Part shown: positions 5,837 through 62,221 of the stretch, piece after piece
Layout of the letters: every line of letters starts with the position of its first letter
Numbering within the stretch: position 1 is the stretch's first letter
NCBI GenBank assembly: GCA_030685215.1
Contig: JAUXQB010000024.1
Location: 1-63,705 of the forward strand
Direction of reading: 5' to 3'
From: Actinomycetota bacterium
Lineage (GTDB): Bacteria > Actinomycetota > Acidimicrobiia > Acidimicrobiales > Ilumatobacteraceae
DNA: 63,705 bases
Notes under the pieces: model-generated
Seen by the model: only the letters and a program-made list of their open reading frames with translations
The model's database searches: none
Told to the model about the DNA's origin: nothing
Program-made: the position numbers and the translations under genes

Positions 5837-5842
5837 AGGCTA
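5837..5842 (-). promoter_or_regulatory. TAGCCT -10-like box of the GT2 operon
   Basis: TAGCCT on the minus strand, 3 nt before ATG (5833) and 9 nt before an in-frame GTG (5827). It belongs to a set of seven identical boxes placed next to gene starts in this window. A transcript starting 6-8 nt downstream of the box would begin after the ATG and favour the GTG. Confidence 0.5.
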
Positions 5843-5905
5843 GCGGCGCGACCCCCACCGCCACCGGTCACCTCCGCGGCGCACTCGACAAGATCGGGAA
5901 AGTGC

Positions 5906-5934
5906 TTGCAATAGTTAGCAGTCTGCGGTATGGT
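5906..5934 (+). promoter_or_regulatory. Sigma70-type promoter of the small coiled-coil gene
   Basis: TTGCAA (5906-5911), a 17-nt spacer, and TATGGT (5929-5934): close to the housekeeping consensus with ideal spacing. It gives an untranslated leader of roughly 45 nt containing the Shine-Dalgarno-like AAAGGA upstream of ATG 5987, in contrast to the leaderless starts that dominate the window. Confidence 0.65.
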
Positions 5935-5986
5935 GCTATCACCCGCCGATCACCCCCCGATCAGCTCCCTCGCAAAGGACACCACC

Positions 5987-6412
5987 ATGGCCACCAAGCC
6001 CGACTTCTCCAAGATCACCAACGGGTTCGACTTCTCGAACCTCGATGCCAGCAAGCTCGCCGGTCTCGACGACAAGCTCGTCGCCGCACTGCGCGACGCC
6101 GCCTACATCACCATCGGCTTCGGCGTGCTCGCCGTGCAGCAGGCCCAGGTGCGTCGCCGCGAGATCGTCAAGACGCTGTCGGAGCGCTTCGGCACCAGCA
6201 AGGCGCAGGCCGACGATCTGCTCTCCACGATGGAGTCGCAGCTCAGCAAGCTCGACGAGCGCCTGAACGCCCTCGAGACCAAGCTCGACAGCAGCGTCGA
6301 GAAGCTGGAAGAGCGCCTGCCCGAGCAGGCCGCCGCCCTCGTCGGCCAGGCGCACGACATCGCCAAGGCCGCCCGCAAGCAGGTCCGCGGCCTCATCCGC
6401 ACCGCCGCCTGA
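5987..6412 (+). CDS. Small conserved coiled-coil protein of unknown function
   Basis: A 141-residue protein beginning MATKPDFSKITNGFDFSNLD. It has a helical, moderately hydrophobic segment (residues about 36-55, AAYITIGFGVLAVQQAQVRR) and then a charged heptad-like coiled coil (residues about 65-120) ending in basic residues (ARKQVRGLIRTAA). This architecture recalls heparin-binding-hemagglutinin- or phasin-like surface or granule-associated actinobacterial proteins, but no family can be assigned. The ATG at 5987 is supported by AAAGGA upstream. A near-consensus promoter and a strong terminator flank it, so it is probably a monocistronic, well-expressed gene. The longer in-frame extension to 5930 starts inside the -10 box and is rejected. 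Confidence 0.75.
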   Translation: MATKPDFSKITNGFDFSNLDASKLAGLDDKLVAALRDAAYITIGFGVLAVQQAQVRRREIVKTLSERFGTSKAQADDLLSTMESQLSKLDERLNALETKLDSSVEKLEERLPEQAAALVGQAHDIAKAARKQVRGLIRTAA

Positions 6413-6422
6413 TTCCACGCAA

Positions 6423-6460
6423 CGCACGAGGCGCCGGCAGCAACGCCGGCGCCTCGTGCG
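6423..6460. terminator. Bidirectional terminator, 16-bp perfect stem
   Basis: CGCACGAGGCGCCGGC (6423-6438) pairs perfectly with 6445-6460 around a 6-nt AGCAAC loop. It sits in the 52-bp gap between two convergent genes and can terminate both. There is no U-tract on either strand, as is common in GC-rich actinobacteria. Confidence 0.85.
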
Positions 6461-6464
6461 CGTG

Positions 6465-8963
6465 TCAGGCGAAGTAGCCGCTCACGTCGACCAGCACGTG
6501 CACGCTGCGGTTCGACGCGATGCACCAGCGACCGCTGCCGTCGTCGGGGCCGACCACCGTGGTCGCTGCGTTCGCGTACGGGGCGTATCGCACCATCGAG
6601 AGATCGGGCACCGCGGGCAGGCACGGGTGCACGGTGAGGTAGCCCGACGACGTCGGGTACACCGCAGTCACCTCCGCCATCACGGCTCGCAGCGTGGCGG
6701 CAGCCGGCAGGCCCTGCTGCCCTGCGAGCACGAACGCCCGGCCGACGTTGGCGGCGAACTGGCCGCTGAGGCCGATGGCATTGCGCGTGTCGACCGCACG
6801 GAACGGCGTCACCGCGAAGAATTCGGAGGTCGCGGCTGCGCCGAACCAGCCGCTGAAGTCGAGCGTGACGTGCATGGCCGTGCTCACGTGCACGCACACC
6901 TCGCCGGCGCCGTTGAGCGCCACCTCGACGTGGTTGGTGACGCTCGAGCCGCTGAGCACGTTGATGTTGCTGACCAGCGGCACCTCCGCCGAGCACGGGA
7001 ACACGGTGGCCCACCCGGAGGCCGTGGCGCCGGTGCTGTGCAGCGTGAGCGCCGCGGCCGAGGCACCTGCCGGCGCGCCGCCCGCGGTGACCACGGGAAT
7101 GCGCACGATGGTGCCGGCGGCCACCCTCGAGCCGGAACGCGAGTCGTACAGGCGCGACGGGGCGACCGGCTCGAAGCGGTCGCCGACCGCGGGCGCGTAC
7201 GAGCCGAACAGGTCGACCACGAGCGCGGTGGCCGCGGAGGTGAACACGCAGAACGTGCCGTCCGCGCTGAGGGGTACCACGGCCATCCCCGCCACGGTGT
7301 TGCCGGCGAGCGCCTGGATGGCCGAGACGTTCGGCCGCGCCACGCCGCAGGGATAGGCGGTGACGTACGCGTTGGTGGGAGGCCGCACCGAGGTGAGGTT
7401 CACGGCCACCGCAATGACCGACGGGTCGAGGCCCGGGTCCACCACCAGCGTGCAGCCGCCGCCGAGTGGGGAGGCTGCCGTGCCGGTGCCGTCGCGGGTG
7501 TCGATCAGGCGGACGGGTGCCAGCGGCGTGTACCGGGCTCCGGCGGCGGTGCCGGGCGCCGCGCCGATCGGCGGCTCGGTTCGCCCCGGGCACGGGTCGG
7601 GCGGAGGTGGTGGCGCCGTCGCGCCGCGCACGTTGAACCAGTTCGCCTTCAGACCGAACGCCGACTTGAACTGGTCGCCGGTGACGGTGACCGACGACGA
7701 CGCGCCGGTGATGCGGATGGACGTGACGCGCCCGCCCCATTCCCCGTACCCGTTGCGGGCCAGCACAGTGAGCGACGTGAACGTGCCGATCGCCGGATAG
7801 CGCGCGGTGATGGCGCTGCCGACGAGCGTGGTGGTCCAGGTGTGGTTGGGGTTGAGGCTGGTGTCGTCGCCCTCGTCGACCACCGCGGGGAAGGGCATCT
7901 GTGCACCCACGCCGGCCGCGGTCCAGCCACCGTTCGATGCGGCGAACATCGTGTACGCGATGGCGCCGGAGGTGGTGCCCACACGCCGCACCACGCCGGC
8001 GGTGGCGAGCACGGCTGCGTCGGTGCCCGGGTACTCGACCTGTGTGTACGCGCTGCCGACGCTGTTGCGAGTGGCGGCGCCCATGTAGTACTGGCACACG
8101 AGATCGCACGTCTTCGCGTACGAGTACTTGTTCTCGGCGAGCGCGTAGCTGCGCGCGGCGACGGCCTGCGCCTGCAACGCCTGTGCACCCTTGCCGCCGC
8201 CGGCAGTGGCCCACGACGGCGACATCTCCTTCGCGATGACCGAGCGCAGGTAGTGCTCGAGCGGCACGATGTTGACCGTGCGGTTCTCGCCCGCGGTGCC
8301 GTTGACCGCTCGGATGAAGCCGCGGTACGACTTCACCTTTCCGCCGGGTTCGCACACCGCGGGCAACGACGGGAAGCCGGCCGTGGTCGTGTCGGCCTGC
8401 GTGCGGATGTTCACCTGCGTCGACACCGCATCGGACACCAGCGTCCATCCCGACGACACCGGGTTGCCCGACGCCGCCGGGCACACCTGCGCGTCGCTCC
8501 GCGCCCACACCGAGTACACCGACGGCGACACCTCACGGGCGAGCACCGACTTCCACGGTCCGCCGGCCACTCCGTCGACCACCAGGCCGCCGCTCTCGCT
8601 GACCACGGCGGTCTGCGCGTCGTCGAGGTTCTGCAGGCGCACGGTGATCACCGAGTCGAGCGGCACGGTGCCGGCGACGGTGCCGCCGTAGTAGTGGTTC
8701 AGGATCTGCGCCGACGACCATCCGTGGTCGACCGCATACCCGTACGCACCCCACTGGCTGAGCCCGTAGCCGTGGCCGTAGCCGCGCCCGTCGATGGTGA
8801 CGACCGTGTCGGCTGCAGCGTGAACCGGTGCTGCGGCGGGTGGCGCGCCCACGAGTACCGCCGACATCGCGAGCGACGCGACAAGGAGACCTCGACGACG
8901 GCGCATGCACTGGTATCGGCGCCGAGGGCGGCCGGCTTGACCTCCGCCCTGGGTTCTCGTCAT
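6465..8963 (-). CDS. Secreted SpoIID/LytB-domain protein with three C-terminal beta repeats
   Basis: Up to 832 residues. A signal peptide (RRRRGLLVASLAMSAVLVGAPPAAA) is followed by the glycine-rich motif GRGYGHGYGLSQWGAYGYA and a SpoIID/LytB region to about residue 440, a family that acts on or stimulates turnover of peptidoglycan. After a proline linker there are three related segments of about 110-130 residues, ending VDLFGSYAP, LDFSGWFG and VDVSGYFA, each with a YP/FPC motif and an LID/LYD/VDTR start; this repeat type is common on secreted actinobacterial proteins and probably binds the wall. Two starts are possible: ATG 8963, or ATG 8906 that begins directly at the basic signal-peptide region. 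No sporulation genes are nearby, so a sporulation role is not implied. Confidence 0.8.
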   Translation of the reverse strand: MTRTQGGGQAGRPRRRYQCMRRRRGLLVASLAMSAVLVGAPPAAAPVHAAADTVVTIDGRGYGHGYGLSQWGAYGYAVDHGWSSAQILNHYYGGTVAGTVPLDSVITVRLQNLDDAQTAVVSESGGLVVDGVAGGPWKSVLAREVSPSVYSVWARSDAQVCPAASGNPVSSGWTLVSDAVSTQVNIRTQADTTTAGFPSLPAVCEPGGKVKSYRGFIRAVNGTAGENRTVNIVPLEHYLRSVIAKEMSPSWATAGGGKGAQALQAQAVAARSYALAENKYSYAKTCDLVCQYYMGAATRNSVGSAYTQVEYPGTDAAVLATAGVVRRVGTTSGAIAYTMFAASNGGWTAAGVGAQMPFPAVVDEGDDTSLNPNHTWTTTLVGSAITARYPAIGTFTSLTVLARNGYGEWGGRVTSIRITGASSSVTVTGDQFKSAFGLKANWFNVRGATAPPPPPDPCPGRTEPPIGAAPGTAAGARYTPLAPVRLIDTRDGTGTAASPLGGGCTLVVDPGLDPSVIAVAVNLTSVRPPTNAYVTAYPCGVARPNVSAIQALAGNTVAGMAVVPLSADGTFCVFTSAATALVVDLFGSYAPAVGDRFEPVAPSRLYDSRSGSRVAAGTIVRIPVVTAGGAPAGASAAALTLHSTGATASGWATVFPCSAEVPLVSNINVLSGSSVTNHVEVALNGAGEVCVHVSTAMHVTLDFSGWFGAAATSEFFAVTPFRAVDTRNAIGLSGQFAANVGRAFVLAGQQGLPAAATLRAVMAEVTAVYPTSSGYLTVHPCLPAVPDLSMVRYAPYANAATTVVGPDDGSGRWCIASNRSVHVLVDVSGYFA

Positions 8964-8980
8964 TGGACAAGTCTGGCCGG

Positions 8981-8986
8981 TAGCCT
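8981..8986 (+). promoter_or_regulatory. TAGCCT -10-like box of the flippase gene
   Basis: TAGCCT, 7 nt before an in-frame TTG (8994) and 10 nt before GTG (8997). The nearby ATG (8989) is out of frame with the flippase. The spacing suggests a leaderless or nearly leaderless transcript. Confidence 0.55.
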
Positions 8987-8996
8987 CGAATGCTTG

Positions 8997-10325
8997 GTGG
9001 CAGCGTCCGACGAATCATCCTCAACCTCTCGCGTGCCCGTACCCGAAGGCACCATTCCGGTGGCCGTCGGTCTGCTCATCGCGGGCGTCGCCAGCTACCT
9101 CTTCCTCAAGGTCGGCAAGGAAGCGCTGGGCAGCGACGAAGCGCTGCAGCCGATCACCAGCCTCTGGGTCGCCACCTTCGCACTCGCGCCCGGCGTGTTC
9201 CTGCCGGTCGAGCAGGAACTGGCACGTGCGCTGTCGAGCCGCCGGGCGATGGGCATGGGCGGAAAGCCGGTGCTGCGCAAGGTCATCGCGCTCGGCACGG
9301 GCCTCGCTGCCATCGTCTCCGCCATCATCCTGCTGGCCAGTCCCGCGCTCGCGTCGGCGTTCTTCAACGACGACTGGGTGCTGGTCGTCGCGTTGCTCAT
9401 CGCCTTCGTCTCGTACACCCCGGCGCACATCGCACGCGGCGTCGCCAGCGGTCACGGGCGGTTCCGCGCGTACGCCATCGTCATGGCATCCGACGGCGTC
9501 GTGCGCATCGCGTTCTGTCTGCTCCTCGCCGTCATCGGCGTCAAGACCGTCGGACCCTACGGCCTCGCCATCGCGTTCGCCCCGCTCCCTGGCGTGCTGT
9601 GGGTGTACTTCCGCGGCCAGCTGAAGACCGACGACGGTCCCGCGGCCGAGTGGGGCGAGGTCACCCAGAACCTGGGCTGGTTGCTGGTGGGTTCGATGTT
9701 CGCGGCCGGCCTGGTGAACGCCGGCCCGCTCGCCGCCACCGTGCTGGCGGAGCCTGGCCAGGAGGAACTGGTCACCCGCTTCACCTACGGCGTGCTGCTC
9801 GCCCGCATCCCGCTGTTCCTGTTCCAGGCGGTGCAGGCCGCGCTGCTGCCGCGCTTGTCGCAGCTGGCGGCGCGTAACGAGATCGCCGAGTTCCGTCAGG
9901 GGCTCGCCCGCCTGATGAAGGTGGTGTTGCTGGTCGCCGTGGTCGGAACCGCCGGCGCCTACGTGGTGGGCCCGCTGGTCATCGAGAAGTTCTACGACTC
10001 CGAGCTCAGTGGCAACACCTTGGCCACGCTCGCGTTCAGCAGCGCCATCTACATGTTGGCGTTGGCCTTGGCGCAAGCGGTCATCGCACTGCGCGGGCAC
10101 CGGCTGGTCGCGCTCGGCTGGGCCTGCGCCGGCATCACGTTCCTGTTGGTCACCTGGTTGAACAACGAACCGCTGTTCCGCCGAGTCGAGTTCGGTCTGG
10201 TCGCCTCGTCGGTGGCCGCTCTCGTCGCCTTCGCGTTGGCTCTGCGACACAAGCTGAGCACGGGCGTGGTGCCGAGCGGCGGTTCGTTGATGGACGCCAT
10301 CACCGACATGCCCCTCGAGAGCTGA
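8997..10325 (+). CDS. Oligosaccharide flippase (MATE/MurJ-Wzx superfamily)
   Basis: A 442-residue, very hydrophobic protein with about 12 predicted membrane helices, starting VAASDESSSTSRVPVPEGT and entering its first helix at PVAVGLLIAGVASYLF. Length, helix spacing and lack of soluble domains match polysaccharide-export flippases of the MATE/MOP superfamily, which flip lipid-linked saccharides across the cytoplasmic membrane. It lies beside gmd and glycosyltransferase genes, consistent with export of the glycan made by this region. Start is GTG 8997, or TTG 8994 exactly 7 nt after the TAGCCT box; the large upstream open frame overlaps the SpoIID gene antisense and is rejected. The lipid substrate is not known. 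Confidence 0.75.
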   Translation: MAASDESSSTSRVPVPEGTIPVAVGLLIAGVASYLFLKVGKEALGSDEALQPITSLWVATFALAPGVFLPVEQELARALSSRRAMGMGGKPVLRKVIALGTGLAAIVSAIILLASPALASAFFNDDWVLVVALLIAFVSYTPAHIARGVASGHGRFRAYAIVMASDGVVRIAFCLLLAVIGVKTVGPYGLAIAFAPLPGVLWVYFRGQLKTDDGPAAEWGEVTQNLGWLLVGSMFAAGLVNAGPLAATVLAEPGQEELVTRFTYGVLLARIPLFLFQAVQAALLPRLSQLAARNEIAEFRQGLARLMKVVLLVAVVGTAGAYVVGPLVIEKFYDSELSGNTLATLAFSSAIYMLALALAQAVIALRGHRLVALGWACAGITFLLVTWLNNEPLFRRVEFGLVASSVAALVAFALALRHKLSTGVVPSGGSLMDAITDMPLES

Positions 10326-10340
10326 CGCCCCCGCAACCGA

Positions 10341-10361: not shown

Positions 10362-10362
10362 G

Positions 10363-11500: not shown

Positions 11501-11510
11501 CGGTGGCGAG

Positions 11511-16942: not shown

Positions 16943-16948
16943 AGGCTA
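16943..16948 (-). promoter_or_regulatory. TAGCCT box fused to the upstream stop codon
   Basis: TAGCCT on the minus strand, 9 nt before GTG 16933. Its first three bases (16948-16946) are the TAG stop codon of the upstream glycosyltransferase gene, so an internal promoter begins exactly where that gene ends. Confidence 0.55.
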
Positions 16949-19335: not shown

Positions 19336-20411
19336 TCGGCCAGCTCTCGGTAGGCGGCTGCGGTGAGCGACGCGGTGGTCGCCCAGCTCCGGCGTTGCGC
19401 GCGGGCGAGGCCCTTGGCGGAGAGCTCCTTGTGGCGGCGCAGTGCTTCGTCGATGCCGCGGGCGATGTCGGCGGGGTCCATCGGGTCGACCAGCACTGCC
19501 GCGCTCCCGGCGGTCTCCTCGGTGGCCGTGCCGCGACTGGTGACCACCGGCGTGCCCTGCGCCATCGCTTCCAACACCGGCAGCCCGTATCCCTCGCGTT
19601 CGCTCGGGTAGCAGAACGCGGCGGCTCCCCCGTAGAGGCCGGAGAGGTCTTCACCTGCGACAAACCCGAGGAAGCGCACGTGGTGCGCGTCGTCGAGACC
19701 GTTGTCGCCCCAGCCGTCGGCGCCCGCCACGACGAGCGGCGGCGCGTCGGGAAGGTGTTCGAGCGCCGCGACCAGACCCTTCAGGTTCTTGCGCGGCTCG
19801 ACGGTGCCGACGAACAGCAGGTACTCGTCGGGCAGCCGGTAGAGCTGACGAACGCGAGCCACCTCCTGCTCGGTCGCGCGTTCCGTCTCCACACCCAGCG
19901 GCACCAGCCGCAAGCGCTCCGCGTCGAGGCCGGCGACCAGACAGTCGTCCATCGTGGCCTGGCTGCAACAGAGCACGAGATCGGCGCGGCGCTTGATCTC
20001 CTCGAGGCTGCGCGTGAACACGCGCACACCGTGCGGTGTGAACTGGCTGGGGTCGTGCAGGAACGCGAGGTCGTGCAGCGTGACCACCAGCTTGGCGTCG
20101 CTGGGGCACGGGATGAGCGTGGTGGCGTGGGCGATGTCGACCCTGCCGGTGGCCATCTCCACCTTCGGCCAGTGCGCTCGCAGCCACGTCTCGTACAACC
20201 ACGGTGCGGCGAGCGGCAGGTGCGCGACGGGAATGGTGGGCACCCATGGCTCGGGTGGGAGGTGCCGGTGGCGACCCGCCACACCGACCAGCCGGACGTC
20301 GTTGTGCGGCCCCAACGCCTCCGCGATGCGCAGCGCCGCGACCGCAGTACCACCTGGTACGCGGTGCCAACACTGCTCGAGGGTGTACGCGACTCGCACG
20401 CACCCCATCAT
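19332..20411 (-). CDS. Family 1 glycosyltransferase
   Basis: A 359-residue GT-B enzyme starting MMGCVRVAYTLEQCWHRVPGG. The acceptor loop VPGGTAVAALRIAEAL, the hinge LVVTLHDLAFLHDPSQF, the donor-site opening LFVGTVEPRKNLKGL and the E-x7-E motif YPSEREGYGLPVLEAMAQGTPVV are all present. It heads a leftward trio of glycosyltransferase genes joined by four-base overlaps. It is divergent from the GDP-fucose synthase gene with only 27 bp between start codons. Two adjacent ATG codons (20411 and 20408) are possible starts. Donor and linkage are unknown. Confidence 0.84.
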   Translation of the reverse strand: MMGCVRVAYTLEQCWHRVPGGTAVAALRIAEALGPHNDVRLVGVAGRHRHLPPEPWVPTIPVAHLPLAAPWLYETWLRAHWPKVEMATGRVDIAHATTLIPCPSDAKLVVTLHDLAFLHDPSQFTPHGVRVFTRSLEEIKRRADLVLCCSQATMDDCLVAGLDAERLRLVPLGVETERATEQEVARVRQLYRLPDEYLLFVGTVEPRKNLKGLVAALEHLPDAPPLVVAGADGWGDNGLDDAHHVRFLGFVAGEDLSGLYGGAAAFCYPSEREGYGLPVLEAMAQGTPVVTSRGTATEETAGSAAVLVDPMDPADIARGIDEALRRHKELSAKGLARAQRRSWATTASLTAAAYRELAD

Positions 20412-20425: not shown

Positions 20426-20431
20426 TAGCCT
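20426..20431 (+). promoter_or_regulatory. TAGCCT box, 7 nt before the GDP-fucose synthase start
   Basis: TAGCCT followed by GGTGGTC and ATG 20439. The placement fits a -10 element of a leaderless mRNA. The whole divergent intergenic region is 27 bp, leaving room for little else. Confidence 0.6.
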
Positions 20432-20438: not shown

Positions 20439-21401
20439 ATGACCGGTTTTTGGAATGGCCGCCGCGTCGTCGTCACCGGCGGCGCGGGGTTCCTCGGACG
20501 AGTGGTGGTGCAGAAGCTGCGCGCGGCGGGCGCAGACGTCGCCGTGCCCCGCAGTCGCGACTACGACCTCACTCACCCGGGCGTGGCCGAACAGCTGCTC
20601 GCCGACACCTCCCCCACGCACGTCATCCACCTGGCCGCACGGGTCGGGGGCATCGGGTACAACCAGGCGCAGCCGGCGCCGCTGTACCTCGAGAACCTCC
20701 TCATGGGCACCCATGTCATCGAAGCGGCGCGCACCGCGCCCGGCGTCGACAAGACCGTGCTGCTCGGCACCGTGTGCTCGTACCCGAAGTTCACGCCGGT
20801 GCCGTTCCGCGAGGAGAGCCTGTGGGACGGCTACCCGGAGGAGACGAACGCGCCGTACGGCATCGCCAAGAAGGCGCACCTCATCCACGCCCAGGTCAAC
20901 GCGCAGCAGTACGGCCAGAAGTTCGCCTACCTCATCCCCACCAACCTCTACGGCCCCGGCGACAAGTTCCACCCGTCGGTCAGTCACGTCATCCCCGCCC
21001 GCATCAAGCGCTGCGTGGAGGCCAAGGAGCTGGGCGAGCACAAGATGGACGTGTGGGGCACCGGCACCGCCAGCCGCGAGTACCTCTACGTCGACGACGC
21101 GGCCGAAGCCATCGTCATCGCCGCCGAGCACTACGAGGGCACCGACCCGGTGAACCTCGGCACCAACCGCGAGGTCACCATCCGCGAGACCGTCGAACTG
21201 GTCGCGCAGATGGTCGGCTACGACGGCGAACTGGTGTGGGACCCCACCAAGCCCGACGGCCAGCCCCGTCGCCGCGTCGACCCGGGCCGCGCCGAGGAGC
21301 TCTTCGGGTGGCACGCCCGCATGCCGTTCGAAGAGGGGCTCCAGCGCACCATCGACTGGTACCTCGCCAACCGGGCCGAGGCCGAGCGCGACCCGTTCTA
21401 G
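20439..21401 (+). CDS. fcl: GDP-L-fucose synthase (GDP-4-keto-6-deoxymannose epimerase/reductase)
   Basis: A 320-residue extended SDR. VVTGGAGFLG (residues 11-20) binds NADP; GTVCSYPKF (110-118) contains the catalytic Ser/Cys region typical of GDP-fucose synthases, and YGIAKK carries Tyr140/Lys144. HLAARVGGIGYNQAQPA is a family hallmark. It turns the product of Gmd into GDP-L-fucose by 3,5-epimerisation and NADPH-dependent reduction. gmd is 9 kb away in opposite orientation, so the pathway is split across transcription units. The stop codon TAG overlaps by four bases with the stop of the convergent acetyltransferase gene. Confidence 0.9.
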   Translation: MTGFWNGRRVVVTGGAGFLGRVVVQKLRAAGADVAVPRSRDYDLTHPGVAEQLLADTSPTHVIHLAARVGGIGYNQAQPAPLYLENLLMGTHVIEAARTAPGVDKTVLLGTVCSYPKFTPVPFREESLWDGYPEETNAPYGIAKKAHLIHAQVNAQQYGQKFAYLIPTNLYGPGDKFHPSVSHVIPARIKRCVEAKELGEHKMDVWGTGTASREYLYVDDAAEAIVIAAEHYEGTDPVNLGTNREVTIRETVELVAQMVGYDGELVWDPTKPDGQPRRRVDPGRAEELFGWHARMPFEEGLQRTIDWYLANRAEAERDPF

Positions 21402-22132: not shown

Positions 22133-22138
22133 TACCGT
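22133..22138 (+). promoter_or_regulatory. TACCGT -10-like box of the ferritin-like gene
   Basis: TACCGT followed by TTTCAC and ATG 22145 (6-nt gap), consistent with a leaderless transcript. No ribosome-binding site is visible upstream of the ATG. Confidence 0.55.
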
Positions 22139-26350: not shown

Positions 26351-26356
26351 TAGGGT
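26351..26356 (+). promoter_or_regulatory. TAGGGT box, 7 nt before livF
   Basis: TAGGGT followed by CGGAGAC and ATG 26364, in the 17-bp livK-livF gap. GGAG in the spacer may instead be a ribosome site on the operon mRNA, so an internal promoter is uncertain. Confidence 0.35.
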
Positions 26357-35892: not shown

Positions 35893-35898
35893 TACACT
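35893..35898 (+). promoter_or_regulatory. TACACT -10-like box, leaderless start of the DMT transporter
   Basis: TACACT followed by seven bases and ATG 35906, in a 50-bp divergent region shared with the dioxygenase operon. Confidence 0.55.
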
Positions 35899-39130: not shown

Positions 39131-39136
39131 AGTATG
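39131..39136 (-). promoter_or_regulatory. CATACT -10-like box of the rmlCBD operon
   Basis: CATACT on the minus strand, then GAGCGG and GTG 39124 (6-nt gap). It lies in the 36-bp gap after the LCP-gene stop codon. Confidence 0.5.
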
Positions 39137-39160: not shown

Positions 39161-40153
39161 TCAGGCAGGAAGTGGGGGTGCCGGTCCGGTGCCGCGGAAG
39201 TAGGCGAGCACCGCGTCGGCGCCATCGCCCAGCAGCAGCACCGCCGCGCCGTCGATGGTCTCGTTCACCACCGGCAACGAGTAGGTGAGCAGCCCGTCGC
39301 CCACTGCGGTGCGCAGCGAGGCGCCGGCGCCGATGGGGTCGAGCTCGTCGTCGATGCGGATGGCCGCGCCCATGGCGGAGACCAGGTCGCCGGTGCGGAA
39401 CGGATCGGTCTTCACGGTGGCGAGCGCCTTCTGCAGCGTGGCGTTCACGAACGCACGCTGGCGCGTGGTGCGACCCAGGTCACTGGTGGGGTCCTCACGC
39501 CACTCGCCGTCGCGGAACTCCTCGTAGTGGCGGCTGCGCGCGTACGCGAGTGACTGCGTGCCGTCGAGCGTGTAGCAACCGCCCACGGGGATGTCGAGCC
39601 CGGTGTTGAAGTCGCGCGTGGGGTACAGGAAGCAGACGTTGATGCCGTCGAGCGCATCGACCAGCGCCTTGAAGCCGAAGAAGTCGATCTCGACGTAGTG
39701 GTGGATGGGTATGCCCAGCGACTCCTGGATGGCCACCACCAACGCCGCGGGGCCGTCGTTGTAGGCGCCGTTGATGCGACCGGTGTGGTCGGCGGTCTCG
39801 ACGTAGAGGTCGCGCGGGATGGACAGGATGGACGCGGTGTCGTCGTTCTTGTCGATGCGCAGCACCATCATCGTGTCGCTGCGGTTGCCGGTGACATCGC
39901 CGGTCTCGCCGGTGTTGGGGTCGCCCGCATCGCGGCTGTCGCTGCCCACCAGCAGGTAGTTCTCGACGTTGGTGCTGGTGCTGCTGAGCACCGACGACAC
40001 ACCGGGCACCCGCGGCACACCATCGACCACGTTGCGCGCCGCGATGAGCGTGCCGGCGCCACCGACGACGGTGGTGACCAGCACGATCGCGAGGAACGTG
40101 GGCAACCGTCGCCGTCGCGGCAGAGGGGTGGTGTCGAGTGCGAGCACGACCAT
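39161..40153 (-). CDS. LytR-CpsA-Psr (LCP) family glycopolymer transferase
   Basis: A 330-residue protein with one N-terminal membrane helix (FLAIVLVTTVVGGAGTLIA) and an LCP domain: GSDSRDAGD, SDTMMVLRID, SIPRDLYV, RINGAYNDG and YARSRHYEEF provide the Asp/Arg residues that bind the polyprenyl pyrophosphate head group. LCP enzymes attach lipid-linked polysaccharides to peptidoglycan outside the cell, the final step for the glycan made by these genes. ATG 40153 lies only 2 nt after a TAGCCT box; GTG 40147, 8 nt after the box, is a reasonable alternative start. It lies just upstream of the rml operon. Confidence 0.87.
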   Translation of the reverse strand: MVVLALDTTPLPRRRRLPTFLAIVLVTTVVGGAGTLIAARNVVDGVPRVPGVSSVLSSTSTNVENYLLVGSDSRDAGDPNTGETGDVTGNRSDTMMVLRIDKNDDTASILSIPRDLYVETADHTGRINGAYNDGPAALVVAIQESLGIPIHHYVEIDFFGFKALVDALDGINVCFLYPTRDFNTGLDIPVGGCYTLDGTQSLAYARSRHYEEFRDGEWREDPTSDLGRTTRQRAFVNATLQKALATVKTDPFRTGDLVSAMGAAIRIDDELDPIGAGASLRTAVGDGLLTYSLPVVNETIDGAAVLLLGDGADAVLAYFRGTGPAPPLPA

Positions 40154-40155
40154 CG

Positions 40156-40161
40156 AGGCTA
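40156..40161 (-). promoter_or_regulatory. TAGCCT box of the LCP gene
   Basis: TAGCCT on the minus strand, 2 nt before ATG 40153 and 8 nt before GTG 40147. Together with similar spacing at 5837-5842, it hints that annotated ATG starts may be two codons too early. Confidence 0.5.
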
Positions 40162-40219
40162 CTGGCGGCCGCCGACGGCGCCCGGTCACCCCGCCATCGT
40201 CACTGCGCCCGAGGCTGCG

Positions 40220-43423: not shown

Positions 43424-44008
43424 GTGTCGCTGCTGCGCTACGTCTCGCACGCCAACGTCGACATCGACGCCAGAGTTCCCGTCCCGGAGTGGCACCTGAG
43501 CGAGCTCGGACGGCGCCGTACCCAGCAGATGTTCGAGCAGCCGTGGATTGCATCCGTCGCGCGGATCGTCAGCAGCGCGGAGACCAAGGCGCTCGACACC
43601 GCGAGCATGCTCGCCGAGCACCTCGGCCTGGCCGTCGAGGTGCGGCCGACCACCGGCGAGATCGATCGCAGCAGCACCGGGTACGTCACCCATGACCGCC
43701 ACGAGCAGCTGGCCAACGAGCTGTTCGCGTTCCCTGATCGCTCGGCCGACGGGTGGGAGCGAGCAGTCGACGCGCAGGCGCGCATCGTCGACGCACTCTC
43801 CGACCTCGTCGACGGCGTCGTGAACACGGTGGTGGTCGGGCACGGAGGGGTCGGCACGCTCTGGTACTGCCGGCTCACCGACCAGCCGATCGATCGACGG
43901 CACGACCAGCCCGGGCAGGGCCACTACTTCACCGTCGACACCACCACCCGCACCGTGCTGCACCCGTGGCGGGCCATCGACGACTTCGGGCGGCCTCCCA
44001 CTCACTAG
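43424..44008 (+). CDS. Histidine phosphatase-superfamily protein
   Basis: A 194-residue phosphoglycerate-mutase-fold protein. The N-terminal phosphohistidine motif, normally RHG, is SHAN (His9); SSAETKALDTA and VVGHGGVGTLWY supply the second Glu/His set. The altered first motif keeps the nucleophilic His but loses the usual Arg, which suggests either weak activity or an unusual substrate. GTG start 43424. Its TAG stop codon is the first half of the TAGCCT box of the DUF389 gene. Confidence 0.77.
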   Translation: MSLLRYVSHANVDIDARVPVPEWHLSELGRRRTQQMFEQPWIASVARIVSSAETKALDTASMLAEHLGLAVEVRPTTGEIDRSSTGYVTHDRHEQLANELFAFPDRSADGWERAVDAQARIVDALSDLVDGVVNTVVVGHGGVGTLWYCRLTDQPIDRRHDQPGQGHYFTVDTTTRTVLHPWRAIDDFGRPPTH

Positions 44009-44011
44009 CCT
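44006..44011 (+). promoter_or_regulatory. TAGCCT box overlapping a stop codon, before the DUF389 gene
   Basis: TAGCCT, 8 nt before ATG 44020. Bases 44006-44008 are the stop codon of the phosphatase gene, the same arrangement as at 16943-16948 on the other strand. Confidence 0.55.
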
Positions 44012-45646: not shown

Positions 45647-45652
45647 AGAATA
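45647..45652 (-). promoter_or_regulatory. TATTCT -10-like box, leaderless lipoprotein gene
   Basis: TATTCT, then GTGGCG and ATG 45640. The 6-nt gap fits a leaderless mRNA and favours ATG 45640 over the in-frame GTG immediately after the box. Confidence 0.6.
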
Positions 45653-46171: not shown

Positions 46172-47562
46172 CAGTCGGCTGCTTCGGCGAGCGCCTCGGA
46201 CAGTGCCGGGTGCACGAGCAAGCTCTCCACGATGTCGGTGACCTTCAGGTTGGCGGTGACGGCGAGCGCGATGACGCTGATGAGCTCGGCGGCGTGACGG
46301 CCGACGATGGAGCCGCCGAGCACCACCCCGGTGGCGGGGTCGCTGATGATCTTCACGAAGCCACGCCAGTCGTTGTTGATGAGCGCCTTCGGGGTGCTGC
46401 TGAACGGCACCTTGGTGACGCGGATCTTGCGGCCGACCGCGAACGCGTCGGCTTCGGCGAGACCGACGTCGGCGATCTCGGGCTCGGTGAAGATGGCGCT
46501 GGCCGCCTTGTCGTAGTCGAGGTGGCGGTGCGCGACCTTCGACAGGCCCATCACGTGCTCGGCCACCTTGCGACCCTGCATGCTGGCCACCGACGACAGG
46601 GGCAGCTTGCCGCTCATGTCGCCGGCTGCGTAGATGTGCGACACGTTGCTCTGGCAGTGACGGTTGATGATGACGTAGCCGCCGTTGTCGAGCTCGACAC
46701 CTGCAGAGTCGAGGCCGAGACCATCGGTGTTCGGTACCGAGCCGATGGCGAGCACCGCGTGCGAGCTGCGCACGACGCGACCGTCGTCGCACCGCACCAC
46801 GACCTCCTCGACGCCCTGGTCGTTCACCACACGCTCGATGGAGGTGGCTCGCGCGCCCTTCAACAGGCTGACACCACGACGGAGGAAGTCGTCCTCGAGC
46901 ACCGCGGCCACCTCGGGATCCTTCGAGGGCAGCACCTGCTGACGGCTGACGACGAGCGTGACCTTGGCGCCGAACGAGCTGAACATGTGCACGAACTCGA
47001 CACCCGTGACGCCCGACCCGACCACCGTGACGCTCTCCGGGAACACCTTCGGCGGGTAGCAGTCGCGGGTGACCAGGATGCGTTCGCCATCGGGGTGGCA
47101 CCAGTCGGGGATGCGCGGGCGCGTCCCGGTGGCCACCAGCACCGCATCGGCCGGGATGGTGCGCACCGTGGGCACGCCCTCGGCGTCGGCCGTGGTGACC
47201 TGCACCTCGTGCGGCGACAGCATCTTCGCCGAGCCGTGGATGAGCGTGACACCCTGACTGGTGAGCAGGTTGGTGGTGCTGCGCTGCAGGCGCATCTTGA
47301 TGCTCTCGATGCGTTCGGTGAGCGCTTCCACGTCGACCTCCGGCGCCTGCTGCTCGAGACCCATGCCCTCGAGGCGGCGGGTGAACGCGATGGCGCCACC
47401 GGTGGCGATCATCGTTTTCGACGGGATGCAGTCCCACAGGTGCGCCGCGCCACCGATGACGTCGCGCTCGATGAGGGTGACCTCGGCCCCCAGCCGAGCT
47501 GCGTGCGTTGCCGCGGTGTTGCCCGCGGGCCCACCGCCGATGATCACGAATCGAGTCGCCAC
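46171..47562 (-). CDS. lpdA: NAD(P)H-quinone dehydrogenase, LpdA type
   Basis: A 463-residue flavoprotein disulfide-reductase-fold enzyme: FAD motif GGGPAGNTAA, NAD(P) motif VVGSGVTGVEF, VLAIGSVPNTDGLGL and IYAAGDM. The redox-disulfide position reads GGAAHLWDCIPSK: Cys45 is kept but the partner Cys (position 40) is Ala, as in Mycobacterium LpdA (Rv3303c), which reduces quinones rather than dithiols. The C-terminal VHPALSEAL retains the active-site His. GTG 47562 is 6 nt after a TAGCCT box. It likely feeds electrons to quinones and protects from oxidative stress. Confidence 0.87.
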   Translation of the reverse strand: MATRFVIIGGGPAGNTAATHAARLGAEVTLIERDVIGGAAHLWDCIPSKTMIATGGAIAFTRRLEGMGLEQQAPEVDVEALTERIESIKMRLQRSTTNLLTSQGVTLIHGSAKMLSPHEVQVTTADAEGVPTVRTIPADAVLVATGTRPRIPDWCHPDGERILVTRDCYPPKVFPESVTVVGSGVTGVEFVHMFSSFGAKVTLVVSRQQVLPSKDPEVAAVLEDDFLRRGVSLLKGARATSIERVVNDQGVEEVVVRCDDGRVVRSSHAVLAIGSVPNTDGLGLDSAGVELDNGGYVIINRHCQSNVSHIYAAGDMSGKLPLSSVASMQGRKVAEHVMGLSKVAHRHLDYDKAASAIFTEPEIADVGLAEADAFAVGRKIRVTKVPFSSTPKALINNDWRGFVKIISDPATGVVLGGSIVGRHAAELISVIALAVTANLKVTDIVESLLVHPALSEALAEAAD

Positions 47563-47568: not shown

Positions 47569-47574
47569 AGGCTA
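47569..47574 (-). promoter_or_regulatory. TAGCCT box of the quinone dehydrogenase gene
   Basis: TAGCCT, then CACGCT and GTG 47562 (6-nt gap). The spacing is ideal for a leaderless GTG-started mRNA. Confidence 0.6.
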
Positions 47575-50010: not shown

Positions 50011-50016
50011 TACCGT
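50011..50016 (+). promoter_or_regulatory. TACCGT -10-like box of lysS
   Basis: TACCGT, then CAAGGGACT and GTG 50026. The 9-nt gap allows a leader of about 2-3 nt. The rest of the 143-bp region between lysS and the divergent M15 gene shows no other clear element. Confidence 0.5.
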
Positions 50017-54811: not shown

Positions 54812-54818
54812 GCGCCAC

Positions 54819-54824
54819 AGTATC
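54819..54824 (-). promoter_or_regulatory. GATACT -10-like box of the polyproline-tag pair
   Basis: GATACT on the minus strand, then seven bases and ATG 54811. A -35 element, if any, would fall inside the long inverted repeat at 54833-54928. Confidence 0.5.
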
Positions 54825-56715: not shown

Positions 56716-56716
56716 C

Positions 56717-57571: not shown

Positions 57572-58125
57572 CTACACCGGCGCAGCTGCGGGCACTCATC
57601 ACCGCACGGCGCACGAGCATGCTCGTCGATCGCGCGCGGCCGGTCTCTCGCGAGGTCGTCGCCGAGCTGTGCGAGCTGGCGCAATGGGCACCGAACCACA
57701 AGCGCACCTGGCCGTGGCGGTTCGCGGTCGCCGACGGCGACGGGCGGGCCAGGCTGGGCGACACCATCGCCGACGCGATGGAAGCGCACGGCGACCCGGC
57801 GGAGAAGGTGGCCAAGACGCGCACCAAGTACCTGCGCACTCCCGCCACGCTGGTGGTCGGCTCAGCGGCGGGCGACTCACCGCTGCGGTCCGCCGAGAAC
57901 CGCGACGCCACCGCCGCCGGGGTGCAGAACATCCTGCTGGCAGCAACGGCCACCGGCCTCGCCAGCTACTGGGGCTCGTGCCCGAAGGGGGCCAACGACG
58001 CCGTGGCCGCACTGTGCGGGTTCGAGCCCGGCACGCACATCGCGGCGCTCATCTACCTCGGCTGGGCCACCGAAGGCGTGGTGGCGCCCGAGCGGCCGCA
58101 GGTCCACCTGCACATCATCGACTGA
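57568..58125 (+). CDS. Nitroreductase-family protein
   Basis: A 185-residue flavoprotein of the nitroreductase superfamily: RRTSMLVDRARPVSREVVAELCELAQWAPNHKRTWPWRF is the FMN-binding N-terminus, AAGVQNILLAATATGLASYWGS the dimer core and AALIYLGWATEG the conserved end. It uses NAD(P)H to reduce a nitro, quinone or enone group; the Ser/Arg-rich N-terminal FMN site is intact. The GTG overlap with the hydrolase gene makes it the third gene of the operon. The physiological substrate is unknown. Confidence 0.86.
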   Translation: MTTPAQLRALITARRTSMLVDRARPVSREVVAELCELAQWAPNHKRTWPWRFAVADGDGRARLGDTIADAMEAHGDPAEKVAKTRTKYLRTPATLVVGSAAGDSPLRSAENRDATAAGVQNILLAATATGLASYWGSCPKGANDAVAALCGFEPGTHIAALIYLGWATEGVVAPERPQVHLHIID

Positions 58126-58132
58126 GGCGCCG

Positions 58133-58696
58133 TCAGAAGTCGGCGGAGCGCTCCGCCGCGGCACGGGCCAGCGCGCGGGCACTGCTGCGATCGGGGCTGG
58201 CCACGCTGAAGTAGCCGCTCTCGACCTGCACGATCACCTCATAGGTGTCGTCGCTGCGGATGACGCCCACGGCCGCGAGCCCGATGCCGCTGAGCGGTTC
58301 GATCTCCTCCCCCGATGGTGCGGGCTGTTCGAGGTCGATGGCGGTGCGAGCGCGCACCAGCACGGTGTAGTCGTCGCCGCTGGCACGAACCACGTAACCG
58401 CACAGGTCGTCGGCCAGCTCCTGGGTGGCGGTGAGGCGGCCGGAGCCGACGCCCGCGATGCCCACCCCGTCGAAGTCGTCGGCGGTGAGTGCGTTGCAGA
58501 GCTGCCCGGCGAAGAGCGTGCCGGGCGGCAGCGTGTCGTCGGGTACGAACGAGATGACCACGTCGGGAAGCAGCGTGGTGGCGACGCTGTCGATCGGCAC
58601 GGTGCCGACGGTGACGGGTGTGGACGACGGCGGGTTGTTCTGGCACGCCACGAGGAACCCCGCGGCGCACACGCTGACCGCGGTCCTCCACTTCAT
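58133..58696 (-). CDS. Small secreted lipoprotein, DUF3558-like
   Basis: A 187-residue protein with a lipoprotein signal peptide ending LVAC (Cys18), a Thr/Pro/Val-rich spacer and a compact domain containing GQLCNALTADDFDGVGIAGVG and ADDLCGYVVRASGD, whose two Cys may form a disulfide. The layout resembles the actinobacterial DUF3558 lipoproteins of unknown function; the match is by style and is uncertain. ATG 58696 is 7 nt after TATCGT. It converges on the nitroreductase gene with a 7-bp gap. Confidence 0.68.
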   Translation of the reverse strand: MKWRTAVSVCAAGFLVACQNNPPSSTPVTVGTVPIDSVATTLLPDVVISFVPDDTLPPGTLFAGQLCNALTADDFDGVGIAGVGSGRLTATQELADDLCGYVVRASGDDYTVLVRARTAIDLEQPAPSGEEIEPLSGIGLAAVGVIRSDDTYEVIVQVESGYFSVASPDRSSARALARAAAERSADF

Positions 58697-58703
58697 GACG
58701 GCG

Positions 58704-58709
58704 ACGATA
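58704..58709 (-). promoter_or_regulatory. TATCGT -10-like box of the lipoprotein gene
   Basis: TATCGT, then CGCCGTC and ATG 58696. The same 14-nt string TATCGTCGCCGTCA precedes the glutamine synthetase-like gene at 24.97 kb. Confidence 0.55.
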
Positions 58710-58756
58710 CTGCCCGTGCCACCCCACGACCGGGCAGCCGGCGCACACCGGCGAGG

Positions 58757-60076
58757 TCAGCCGACCGGCACCGGCGCCTGCTCGCTGTCGTGATGGGAGA
58801 TCTCGCGGTACCAACGCGACGAGCGGGCCATCAGCGTGGCGACGATGCCGAACACGCCTGCGGCCGTGAAGATGAGCGCGATGCCACGGTCGTCGCCGGT
58901 CCCGAACCAGTCACCGATCAACTCGCCGCCGGCGCCGTCGGCACGCATGAGCGGGATGAAGACCAGCTGCGCGAGCGGCCCGATCATGAACGCGGTCAAT
59001 GGCGCAGCCGCGTTCTCGACGGTCTGCGCGAAGCCGAACACACGACCCTGGTGATCGAACGGGACCACGCGTTGCAGCACCGTCTGCTCCGCCGCCTCGA
59101 TCATCGGCATCAAGCTCATCCACACGAGCATGCCGACGCCGAGCAAGGCGATGCTTGCCTGCAGTGTGAACACCGCGCACATCACCCAGTTGACGAAGTT
59201 GCCGATCAGGATGAGTCGCATCGGGTTGGCGCCGACGCCCTTCCTGGCCACCACCGCGCCGCCGGCGATGAAGCCGAGGCTCAGCACCGCGAACAGCATG
59301 CCCCACGCCTCCACCGACATCAGCGACAATCCGTACGCATCCATCAGCGACATGAACACGCCGCCGAGCAGGTTGTTGAACGCGGCGAACCCGATGAGCC
59401 CGTAGAGCCCGGGTACTTCGCGGATGATCGCCATCGCGCCGCGGAAGTCGATGGCAGGCGGCCGTTCCTCGTCGTCGTGCTGCTCCGGCATCTCCTCGGG
59501 CACCCGGATGGTGAGCAGGTGCAGCAGCGCCAGCGTGGTGATGACCACGGAGATGATGAGCGCCCAACCCATGCCCAGCTGTCCGACGACGAGACCGCTC
59601 AGCACCGACGTGATGGTGAACGAGATGCCCATCACCGTGCCGACCATGCCGTTCGCACGGCCTCGATCGCCCTCGGGCACGAGCAGCGTGACCGACGTGG
59701 ACAATGCGATTGCGCGCAGGTTGCCCACCACCGACCCGGCGAGGATGACGAACACGAAGATCCAGAAGTGCAGGTTGCGCACCGTGACCAGCGACCCGTC
59801 GGGTGCGACGGCGTAGTGCGCGAGTGCGACCAGGTAGCAGACGAGCGCGGCGACCGATGCGACCACCATCGCGGTGTGCTTGCGGTGATGGTCGACGAAG
59901 GTGCCGAAGTACATGCCGACCAACGCGGAGACCACTGCGAAGCCGCCACCGACGACGGAGGTGGCGATGACCGACCTCGTCTCCAGGTACACCCAGAACG
60001 TGACCGCGAACCAGACGAAGCTGCTCATCACGCTGCTGACCAGCGCGTTCCACAGGAGGCGCTTGAAGATCTTCAT
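58757..60076 (-). CDS. MFS transporter
   Basis: A 439-residue protein with about 12 membrane helices, a short charged central loop (EEMPEQHDDEERP) between the two six-helix halves, and the family motif GMYFGTFVDHHRKHT in the first cytoplasmic loop. It resembles the MFS efflux proteins related to macrolide exporters (MefA/enterobactin-exporter group). ATG 60076 is preceded by GGAAGGA. The gap to the upstream Ddn-like gene is 123 bp and holds one weak hairpin (60157-60175). Substrate is unknown. Confidence 0.85.
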   Translation of the reverse strand: MKIFKRLLWNALVSSVMSSFVWFAVTFWVYLETRSVIATSVVGGGFAVVSALVGMYFGTFVDHHRKHTAMVVASVAALVCYLVALAHYAVAPDGSLVTVRNLHFWIFVFVILAGSVVGNLRAIALSTSVTLLVPEGDRGRANGMVGTVMGISFTITSVLSGLVVGQLGMGWALIISVVITTLALLHLLTIRVPEEMPEQHDDEERPPAIDFRGAMAIIREVPGLYGLIGFAAFNNLLGGVFMSLMDAYGLSLMSVEAWGMLFAVLSLGFIAGGAVVARKGVGANPMRLILIGNFVNWVMCAVFTLQASIALLGVGMLVWMSLMPMIEAAEQTVLQRVVPFDHQGRVFGFAQTVENAAAPLTAFMIGPLAQLVFIPLMRADGAGGELIGDWFGTGDDRGIALIFTAAGVFGIVATLMARSSRWYREISHHDSEQAPVPVG

Positions 60077-60199
60077 CGAACGTCCTTCCGGGGAGAGTGA
60101 CAGGGGGCGGAGCGGGTCACCTTCGAGAGACGGACCAGAGCGAACCGAATCATCGCACCGCTCGGCGGAAGCGGTCGACAGAATTGCCCGAGCCGCAGG

Positions 60200-60580
60200 T
60201 CACACGGTGGGAGCGGTCCAGCCGTCGATGGCGAGCGCCGGCACGTCGTAGCACCATGCGTCGAACGTGAGGCCGATCGACGGGTCGCCGTCCCACGGGT
60301 ACTTGGCGCCCATCAACTCACCGACCGTCCTGCGCTCGTGTGGATCGGTGACCTCTCTCGCGCGACCTCGCCGAACCTCGCGGTCGATGCGGACCGAGAC
60401 GTCCGGTGTCACGAGCGCGTTGCGGAACCAGTCGGCTCCGGGGCCGTTCCCGCTGATGAGGTGCAGCGTGTCGTCGATGACGCCGAACCAGATCTCCACC
60501 TCGTGCGGGTTGCCGCTGCGGCGCCCGGTGGTGGTGAGGTAGCAGTTCTCCTCGTCGAGGAACGGTGTCAGCCAGCTCAT
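60200..60580 (-). CDS. Deazaflavin (F420)-dependent nitroreductase-family protein, Ddn-like
   Basis: A 126-residue split-barrel protein of the DUF385/Ddn type: YLTTTGRRSGNPHEVEIWF is the signature loop that contacts F420, DDTLHLISGNGPGADWFRNAL and VSVRIDREVRRGRAREV complete the core. These enzymes use F420H2 to reduce quinones or nitro compounds. The organism encodes cofD, so F420 is available. The gene begins 3 bp after the mutase stop codon, so they are co-transcribed, an unusual pairing. Confidence 0.86.
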   Translation of the reverse strand: MSWLTPFLDEENCYLTTTGRRSGNPHEVEIWFGVIDDTLHLISGNGPGADWFRNALVTPDVSVRIDREVRRGRAREVTDPHERRTVGELMGAKYPWDGDPSIGLTFDAWCYDVPALAIDGWTAPTV

Positions 60581-60583
60581 CGA

Positions 60584-62164
60584 TCAGCGACCGGGTTGAT
60601 ACACGCCGAACACTTCCCGCAGCGCATCGCTCACTTCGCCGAGCGTGGCGTTGGCACGCAGCGCTTCCTTCATCGGCGGCAGCAGGTTCTGAGTACCGCG
60701 GGCGGCCTCGGTGAGGTCGGCCAGCCGTGCCGCGAGCAGCGCGTGGTCGCGGTTCGCCTTGTATTCGGCGAGGCTCTCCCGCTGGCCCTTCTCGAGCAGC
60801 GGATCGCTCGGGAACACCACCGGTTCCGGCTCGTTGTCGACAGTGAACTTGTTGAGCCCGACGATGACTCGCTCGTCGTTGTCGATGCTCTTCGCGTAGG
60901 CGTAGGCCGCCTCCATGATCTCGTCCTGCTGGAAGCCCGACTCGATGGCCTCGACCGCTCCACCCATCTCGTCGATGCGTTCGATGTACTCCCACGCGAG
61001 ACGCTCGATCTCGTCGGTGAGGGTCTCCACGAAGTAGCTGCCGGCGAGCGGGTCGGGCGTGTCGGCGATGCCGCTCTCGTACCCGATGATCTGCTGCGTG
61101 CGCAACGCGATGCGTGCCGCGCGTTCGGTGGGCAGGCTCAACGCTTCGTCGTATCCGTTGGTGTGCAGGCTCTGCGTGCCACCCATCACCGCGGCCATGC
61201 TCTGCACCGCGACGCGCACGATGTTGTTCTCCGGCTGCTGCGCGGTGAGTGTGCTGCCGCCCACCTGCGTGTGGAAGCGCAACAGCTTGCTGCTCTCCTT
61301 CTGCGCGCCGAAGCGCTCGCTCATCAGCTTGTACCAGATGCGCCGCGAGGCCCGGAACTTGGCGACCTCTTCGAAGAAGTTGTTGTGTGCGTTCCAGAAG
61401 AAGCTCAGTCGGGGTGCGAACGCATCGATGTCGAGCCCTGCGGCCAGCGCGGCTTCCACGTACGCGATTCCGTTCGCGATGGTGAACGCGATCTCCTGCA
61501 CGGCGGTGCTGCCGGCCTCACGGATGTGGTAGCCGCTGATGCTGATGGTGTTCCACTTCGGCACGTTGGCCGCGCAGTACTCGAAGATGTTGGTGATGAT
61601 GCGCATCGACGGCTTCGGCGGATAGATGTACGTGCCGCGCGCGATGTACTCCTTGAGCAGGTCGTTCTGGATGGTGCCGCTGATGGCGCTCGCCGGCACG
61701 CCCTGCTCCTCGGCCACCAGCTCGTACATGAGCAGCAGGATCGCGCCGGTGGAGTTGATGGTCATGCTGGTGCTCACCTTGTCGAGCGGCAGGTCGGCCA
61801 GCAGTGCGCGCATGTCGGCCATGCTGTCGATGGCCACGCCCACCTTGCCCACCTCACCCTCGGCACGCGGGTGGTCGCTGTCGTAGCCCATCTGGGTGGG
61901 CAGGTCGAACGCGCAGCTGAGACCGGTCTGGCCGGCTTCGAGGAGGAACTTGAACCGCTCGTTGGTGCTGGCCGCGGTGCCGAAGCCGGCGTACTGCCGC
62001 ATCGTCCACAACTTGCCGCGGTACATCGTGGGGTACACGCCGCGCGTGTAGGGCGGCTTGCCCGGTGCACCGAGCTGCGTCGCAGGGTCCCAGCCCTCCA
62101 GATCCGAGGCGTCGTACAACGCCTTGATCTCGATGCCGGAGTCGTTACGGATCTCGTCGCTCAT
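60584..62164 (-). CDS. Methylmalonyl-CoA mutase-type acyl-CoA mutase large subunit
   Basis: A 526-residue B12-enzyme catalytic subunit: [60 protein letters not shown] and [14 protein letters not shown] are the acyl-CoA-mutase substrate-channel motifs. It ends before the cobalamin-binding domain, so it must pair with a separate small subunit, as in the archaeal-type MCM or HcmAB mutases; none is in this window. It moves a carbonyl-CoA group in methylmalonyl-, isobutyryl- or 2-hydroxyisobutyryl-CoA. ATG 62164 is 8 nt after TACGCT. Confidence 0.88.
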
Positions 62165-62172
62165 CGCTCGCG

Positions 62173-62178
62173 AGCGTA
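62173..62178 (-). promoter_or_regulatory. TACGCT -10-like box of the mutase gene
   Basis: TACGCT on the minus strand, 8 nt before ATG 62164, in the 64-bp divergent region shared with the gene at 62229. Confidence 0.45.
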
Positions 62179-62215
62179 GGTCGTCGACCGGCGTGCGCGG
62201 CCATCCGGCGGCCTC

Positions 62216-62221
62216 TACGGT
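62216..62221 (+). promoter_or_regulatory. TACGGT -10-like box, leaderless start
   Basis: TACGGT, then TGGCGCA and ATG 62229 (7-nt gap). Confidence 0.55.

Follow-up and report, generated by a model that had tools for sequence, protein, structure and literature searches.

TAGCCT close before start codons in an Ilumatobacteraceae genome: very probably one spelling of the -10 element of leaderless genes

The window analysed here is a stretch of 63,705 nucleotides, contig JAUXQB010000024.1 of assembly GCA_030685215.1, an Actinomycetota genome assigned to the Ilumatobacteraceae. It is one contig of a genome of 4.32 Mb in 340 contigs that is 92% complete, and its guanine plus cytosine (GC) content is 68–72% along its length. 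An earlier note on this DNA pointed to a hexamer, TAGCCT, that recurs just before start codons, together with looser variants of the form TANNNT, and took these as a sign of widespread leaderless transcription with a preference for one exact hexamer. Both TAGCCT and the related TANNNT boxes are very probably ordinary -10 elements, read by a primary sigma factor of the RpoD/SigA type, of leaderless genes. Distances are given below as the gap, the number of nucleotides between the 6-nt box and the start codon; a gap of 6–9 puts the first T of the box at -12 to -15.

TAGCCT occurs seven times in the window. Dinucleotide shuffles gave a mean of 4.03 copies, and at least seven in 9 of 100 shuffles; the number of copies is unremarkable, and it is their placement that stands out. 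All seven were found, as had been claimed, beside gene starts at the positions and on the strands given, each on the same strand as the gene and upstream of its start. On the minus strand, the box at 5837..5842 precedes a glycosyltransferase-family gene, with a gap of 9 to the in-frame GTG 5827 and an ATG (5833) at gap 3; that at 16943..16948 has a gap of 9 to GTG 16933 of a gene without a Pfam match; that at 40156..40161 a gap of 8 to GTG 40147 of a LytR_cpsA_psr gene; and that at 47569..47574 a gap of 6 to GTG 47562 of a Pyr_redox_2 gene. On the plus strand, 20426..20431 lies at a gap of 7 from ATG 20439 of an Epimerase-family gene, and 44006..44011 at a gap of 8 from ATG 44020 of a DUF389 gene. 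The box at 8981..8986 (plus strand) is followed in frame by TTG 8994 (gap 7) or GTG 8997 (gap 10), ATG 8990 being out of frame; the gene behind it has a weak MurJ-like match, below the cut-off. The proposed spacing thus holds with an in-frame start at 6–9 nt for six of the seven sites and at 7 or 10 nt for the remaining one.

The first ATG stands merely 2–3 nt after the box at 5837, 8981 and 40156, and at each of these another in-frame start lies near the expected distance. At 40156 conservation does not point to the ATG at gap 2 but to GTG 40147: 12 of 12 orthologues have GTG there, with a box 6–8 nt ahead. The start at 20439 is backed by six orthologues that align from there and by an Epimerase domain that begins at residue 10. 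The 20426 box was missed in the box search of the window because the gene caller had placed the start at 20262.

The earlier note had proposed counting TAGCCT by distance across the whole genome. The hexamer proved to be enriched at gaps 6–9, with 67 copies 6–9 nt before ATG vs one copy 16–19 nt before ATG. This displaced-gap control is independent of gene calls, and was applied genome-wide to TAGCCT only. It was preferred to a control with reversed patterns, which differ in base rate: their counts in the same genome were 26 (TAGCCT), 43 (TAGCGT) and 39 (TACGCT), and in some genomes the reversed pattern outnumbers the forward one (55 vs 44 in G001, 77 vs 38 in G016).

Gene starts were called with a purpose-written codon-usage gene caller based on coding potential. 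A first sample of 938,735 bases contained 946 called genes; an enlarged sample of 1,126,191 bases (14,584 masked; GC 68.7% in the genome sample) gave 1077 called starts after removal of genes that were open at the 5′ end, lay less than 100 nt from the end of a stretch or contained N. Most sampled stretches came from contigs with a TAGCCT–ATG match and the remainder from 40 contigs without one, 7 of those wholly N. The sampled DNA is therefore biased, with 28.8 TAGCCT boxes 6–9 nt before ATG per Mb vs 15.5 per Mb in the whole genome. In the first sample, which leans to TAGCCT, this hexamer had the top enrichment score of hexamers within 25 nt before called starts (33 vs 0.52 expected). Half of its copies on both strands (27/54) lay at gap 6–9, and its reverse complement was found at gap 6–9 in no case and at gap 2–12 once. 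The enlarged sample had TANNNT at gap 6–9 in 188 of the 1077 called starts (about 17%), distributed as 65, 65, 35 and 23 at gaps 6, 7, 8 and 9. The peak is sharp, with 4 at gap 5 and 5 at gap 10, against a background of 1.4 per gap position at gaps 12–25 and 4.3 at gaps 26–44.

The boxed starts differ from the others in several properties. Shine-Dalgarno (SD) sites are found in 4 of 188 boxed vs 257 of 889 other starts (p 1e-19). The boxed genes begin with ATG (128) or GTG (60) and never with TTG, which accounts for 30 of the 889 other starts (p 0.006); the gene behind the window box at 8981, which has both a TTG (gap 7) and a GTG (gap 10), may depart from this ATG/GTG-only rule. The upstream gene lies on the opposite strand for 95 of 187 boxed and 261 of 879 other starts. 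SRN stands ahead of the box in 54% vs a background of 36%, and C occupies position -1 in 62% of boxed vs 44% of other starts. No -35 element was seen; at none of the positions from 3 to 45 nt ahead of the box did the information exceed 0.07 bit in the 188 boxed starts. CTGACC was considered as a -35 (14/188 vs 2/434, raw p 2.4e-6 in 2440 tests) and rejected, since only 5 of its 14 copies lie 16–19 nt before the box; of six other genomes only one leans likewise (2/40 vs 3/158) and five do not. GTGACC, noticed by eye upstream of the LytR_cpsA_psr box, showed no general enrichment over boxes (6/188 vs 13/434). At that gene itself GTGACC or TGACC stands 22 nt upstream of the box, at 40184–40189 on the minus strand of the window and, again by eye, in the orthologues L192, L194, L196, L199 and L202.

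TANNNT is also found farther from starts. Among non-boxed genes whose upstream gene lies on the opposite strand, those with an SD site have 15 TANNNT sites at gap 30–39 per 55 genes, and those without one have 11 per 206. The same box therefore probably drives leadered genes too. The cluster at this distance also hints at a preferred leader of about 25–35 nt. The genome encodes a primary-type sigma factor: an open reading frame in contig C40, truncated at its N-terminus by the contig edge, has matches among SigA/RpoD chains, one being 5uh5_F (E 6.7e-105). The protein contains a 24-residue stretch that we take to be region 2.4, the part that reads the -10. The sigma-70 region 2 family as a whole has 40 matches in the 4.3 Mb genome, 38 of them above the cut-off.

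For three of the genes preceded by exact TAGCCT, orthologues from the same genus with identities of at least 67% were examined; 14 other genomes gave 12, 12 and 6 orthologues with a usable start, 30 in total. TANNNT is kept in 29 of the 30, and exact TAGCCT in 6. For the gene at 47562, TANNNT is found at gap 6–8 in 12 of 12 orthologues and TAGCCT in 6 of 12; for the gene at 40147 it is again found at gap 6–8 in 12 of 12, with TAGCCT in none of the 12; and for the gene at 20439, TANNNT (TAGCAT or TAACAT) is found at gap 7–8 in 5 of 6, with TAGCCT in none of the 6. The sequence around the box diverges for the genes at 47562 and 40147, and is partly conserved upstream of 20439. The middle bases vary among orthologous promoters, which read TACCCT, TACCGT, TACCTT, TAACCT, TAGATT, TAACAT and TAGCAT. 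The conserved unit of these putative promoters is TA...T at a fixed distance.

Other boxes are present in the window. The eight further TANNNT or NANNNT sites of the earlier note are all in place, although CATACT at 39131 and GATACT at 54819 do not fit TANNNT. They are TACCGT at 22133..22138 (plus, gap 6 to ATG 22145); TACACT at 35893..35898 (plus, gap 7 to ATG 35906 of an EamA-family gene); the weak box CATACT at 39131..39136 (minus, gap 6 to GTG 39124); TATTCT at 45647..45652 (minus, gap 6 to ATG 45640); GATACT at 54819..54824 (minus, gap 7 to ATG 54811), which overlaps TACTGT at 54817–54822 (gap 5); TATCGT at 58704..58709 (minus, gap 7 to ATG 58696); and a divergent pair, TACGCT at 62173..62178 (minus, gap 8 to ATG 62164) and TACGGT at 62216..62221 (plus, gap 7 to ATG 62229). 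Two candidate -10 boxes had not been listed before, TAGGGT at 26351..26356 (plus, gap 7 to ATG 26364) and TACCGT at 50011..50016 (plus, gap 9 to GTG 50026). A loose search, which includes chance matches, found TANNNT 5–10 nt ahead of an in-frame start in the vicinity of the called one in 18 of 59 window genes; three such matches at gap 10 (11495, 24970 and 35881) were left out of the features given here. The five window genes described as having strong SD sites and no box do have purine runs and lack a box; the SD pattern caught four of them and missed 25078, where GGGGGAG is visible by eye.

TAGCCT could in principle mark a regulon as a dedicated element, either the -10 of an alternative sigma factor or an operator. 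Its top enrichment score before starts speaks for this, as do its 29 occurrences among the sampled boxes vs 17.3 expected after permutation of the columns, and its larger share in boxes than in other noncoding TANNNT (29/188 vs 16/269, p 0.001); the 40 matches to sigma-70 region 2 also make alternative sigmas plentiful. However, the uncorrected excess is attributed to the sampling, in which TAGCCT matches guided the choice of most stretches. When the sample is weighted by the whole-genome rate, TAGCCT accounts for 15.6 of 174.6 boxes (about 9%) vs 11.9 (about 7%) expected from independent columns, and in 20 of the contigs picked without a TAGCCT match it is one of 20 boxes. Whole-genome counts at 6–9 nt before ATG are 67 for TAGCCT, 68 for TAGCGT and 51 for TACGCT, with 1, 1 and 2 at the displaced gap in the sample. 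Orthologues exchange the hexamer for other TANNNT, as described above. At gaps 6, 7, 8 and 9 TAGCCT is found 11, 6, 5 and 7 times, a distribution similar to that of the other boxes (54, 59, 30 and 16), and the seven window sites precede genes with mixed Pfam matches, though at least three of these genes could serve the cell envelope. A regulon marked by TAGCCT is thus very unlikely, and the claim that a preference for this exact hexamer is a new observation is not supported: TAGCGT is equally common genome-wide and the corrected share of TAGCCT is near the independent-base expectation. Most likely TAGCCT is not a separate element but one common variant of many.

Two further explanations are even less probable. 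A non-SD ribosome-binding or translation element acting in the RNA of a short leader would account for the restriction of the box to the sense strand and for its fixed distance to the start codon. It is hard to reconcile with the 29 boxed orthologues, in which only T1, A2 and T6 are invariant, with the occurrence of TANNNT 30–39 nt upstream of SD-led genes, or with the SRN and C(-1) signatures, which fit a promoter; it can be given very little weight. The box might also be a by-product of upstream TAG or TAA stop codons, of base composition or of the calling of starts, since a stop codon can form the first three bases of TANNNT. We find this scarcely credible: of 356 starts preceded by a gene on the other strand, 95 carry the box, compared with 4 at gap 16–19, and the displaced whole-genome control (67 vs 1) does not depend on gene calls.

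With ordinary -10 elements of leaderless genes as the preferred explanation, the primary sigma factor would read TANNNT 6–9 nt before ATG or GTG, RNA polymerase would begin transcription on the start codon itself or no more than a few bases away, and the resulting leaderless mRNA, without an SD site, would be translated from its 5′-terminal start codon. About 17% of the called starts in the sample would be leaderless in this way; others would be SD-led, some of them from a TANNNT about 30–39 nt upstream. That TAGCCT ranks among the most frequent spellings follows from the base composition at positions 3–5: with 69% GC in the genome these are mostly G or C, and position 3 leans to G and position 4 to C. 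Compared with 269 other noncoding TANNNT, the boxes have G at position 3 in fractions of 0.47 vs 0.33 and C at position 4 in 0.50 vs 0.40; after correction for sampling the lean shrinks to 0.43 and 0.46. The primary sigma of this Acidimicrobiia-like lineage might actually favor a G/C-rich middle (G or C at position 3 and C at position 4, unlike TATAAT), so that the -10 would be informative beyond TANNNT and TAGCCT would be at or near the optimum, but this is rather doubtful.

Several observations weigh against the proposed leaderless -10 elements or weaken their support. The boxed fraction is 134/717 (19%) in contigs picked through a TAGCCT match, 45/301 (15%) in the others and 9/59 in the window, so that the boxed share drops where TAGCCT did not guide the choice. 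Among the boxed genes, 41 of 187 lie less than 40 nt behind a gene on the same strand, a setting in which some of the boxes may not function. With a gap of 9–10, a leader of a few nucleotides would remain. Some called starts are wrong: that at 20262 is, and so are those at 5833, 9033, 40153 and 47547 provided that the box is correct. The conservation of the box at 20439 is weaker evidence because the upstream sequence is itself conserved, and one of the 30 orthologues, L207, has no box at the aligned start of this gene; its TAGCAT stands 24 nt before that start. In L207 the TAGCAT precedes an out-of-frame ATG located 17 nt before the aligned start, which may reflect a frame change, an assembly error or a moved start. 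On balance, the earlier suggestion of widespread leaderless transcription has good support from sequence features, namely the sharp gap peak, the scarcity of SD sites, the restriction to ATG and GTG, the conservation, and the presence of the box upstream of SD-led genes; the novelty ascribed to the exact hexamer has not.

A search with a GNAT protein encoded in the window yielded twenty relatives. Those nearest to the present genome were assembled from metagenomes and bear the labels Ilumatobacteraceae, Acidimicrobiaceae, Actinomycetes or Actinomycetota, and four of the 20 are labelled otherwise (two mycobacteria, Glycomyces and Frankiales); by these matches the genome likely belongs to an Acidimicrobiia lineage. 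The summed counts of TAGCCT in the 20 relatives are 886 at 6–9 nt and 96 at 16–19 nt before ATG, with the former higher in 20 of 20 and the contrast weakest in G016 (38/18). The corresponding sums for TAGCGT and TACGCT at 6–9 nt are 958 and 795, and TAGCCT exceeds TAGCGT in 9 of the 20. In samples of 200 kb from four relatives that belong to the same class or are closer still, TAGCCT made up 2/31, 3/37, 3/20 and 1/40 boxes. Of 59 additional genomes from the phylum, four belong to the same family or class and have near/displaced counts of 48/4, 34/21, 41/7 and 62/9. The remaining 55 sum to 1456/1032, with a ratio of at least 3 in 15 and of at most 1.25 in 23. In most near relatives the signal of start-proximal TAGCCT is strong; over the phylum as a whole it is uneven.

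With an estimate of about 17% of called starts, this uncultured Acidimicrobiia-like lineage can be added to the actinobacteria with apparent use of leaderless genes. The boxes open no new mechanism, the leaderless -10 being a known actinobacterial habit, but they are useful for correcting start codons: a misleading ATG follows the box by 2–3 nt at three of the seven TAGCCT sites, and orthologues speak against one of these. No earlier promoter map for the lineage was found in the open-licence literature among the matches listed. In one paper related to leaderless genes, mention of Acidimicrobiia is confined to a table of anti-SD types in the parts seen. The string "acidimicrob" has 0 occurrences in the main text of the survey of TA-led genes discussed below (PMC3160421).

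That leaderless mRNAs are known in actinobacteria, as the earlier note stated, is borne out by passages of three papers (PMC3160421; PMC3898074; PMC4633059). Start predictors such as StartLink and GeneMarkS-2 treat Actinobacteria as rich in leaderless genes, and the passages on leaderless models mention neither this lineage nor the TAGCCT hexamer (PMC9581028). TAGCCT as a -10 is already in print. It and TAGCGT are named as putative -10 boxes in Rhodococcus ruber, also an actinobacterium, where exact TAGCCT is assigned to kstD2 (PMC5348764; PMC8228715). In contrast to the boxes described here, the kstD2 hexamer is a bit far from the start site and lacks the leaderless distance, and the passages concern single promoters, with no genome-wide count. 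In the survey of TA-led genes, TANNNT about 12 bp before starts marks leaderless genes, which make up more than 20% of genes in Actinobacteria and Deinococcus-Thermus, and the middle bases carry little information in high-GC groups (Zheng et al., 2011, PMC3160421). The present genome is similar in the place of TANNNT, in the proportion of roughly a fifth of genes and in its high GC, and differs in the modest lean to G3 and C4. Mapped promoters of Mycobacterium tuberculosis have TANNNT without a -35, SRN and C at -1 (Cortes et al., 2013, PMC3898074), and mycobacterial leaderless translation requires an ATG or GTG start (Shell et al., 2015, PMC4633059). In mycobacteria 22–26% of genes are leaderless as mapped by RNA sequencing (PMC3898074), whereas the figure of about 17% boxed starts given here is an estimate from sequence alone. 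The boxed starts of this genome resemble the mycobacterial ones in all of these respects: TANNNT without a -35, SRN ahead of the box, C at -1, and ATG or GTG as the start codon.

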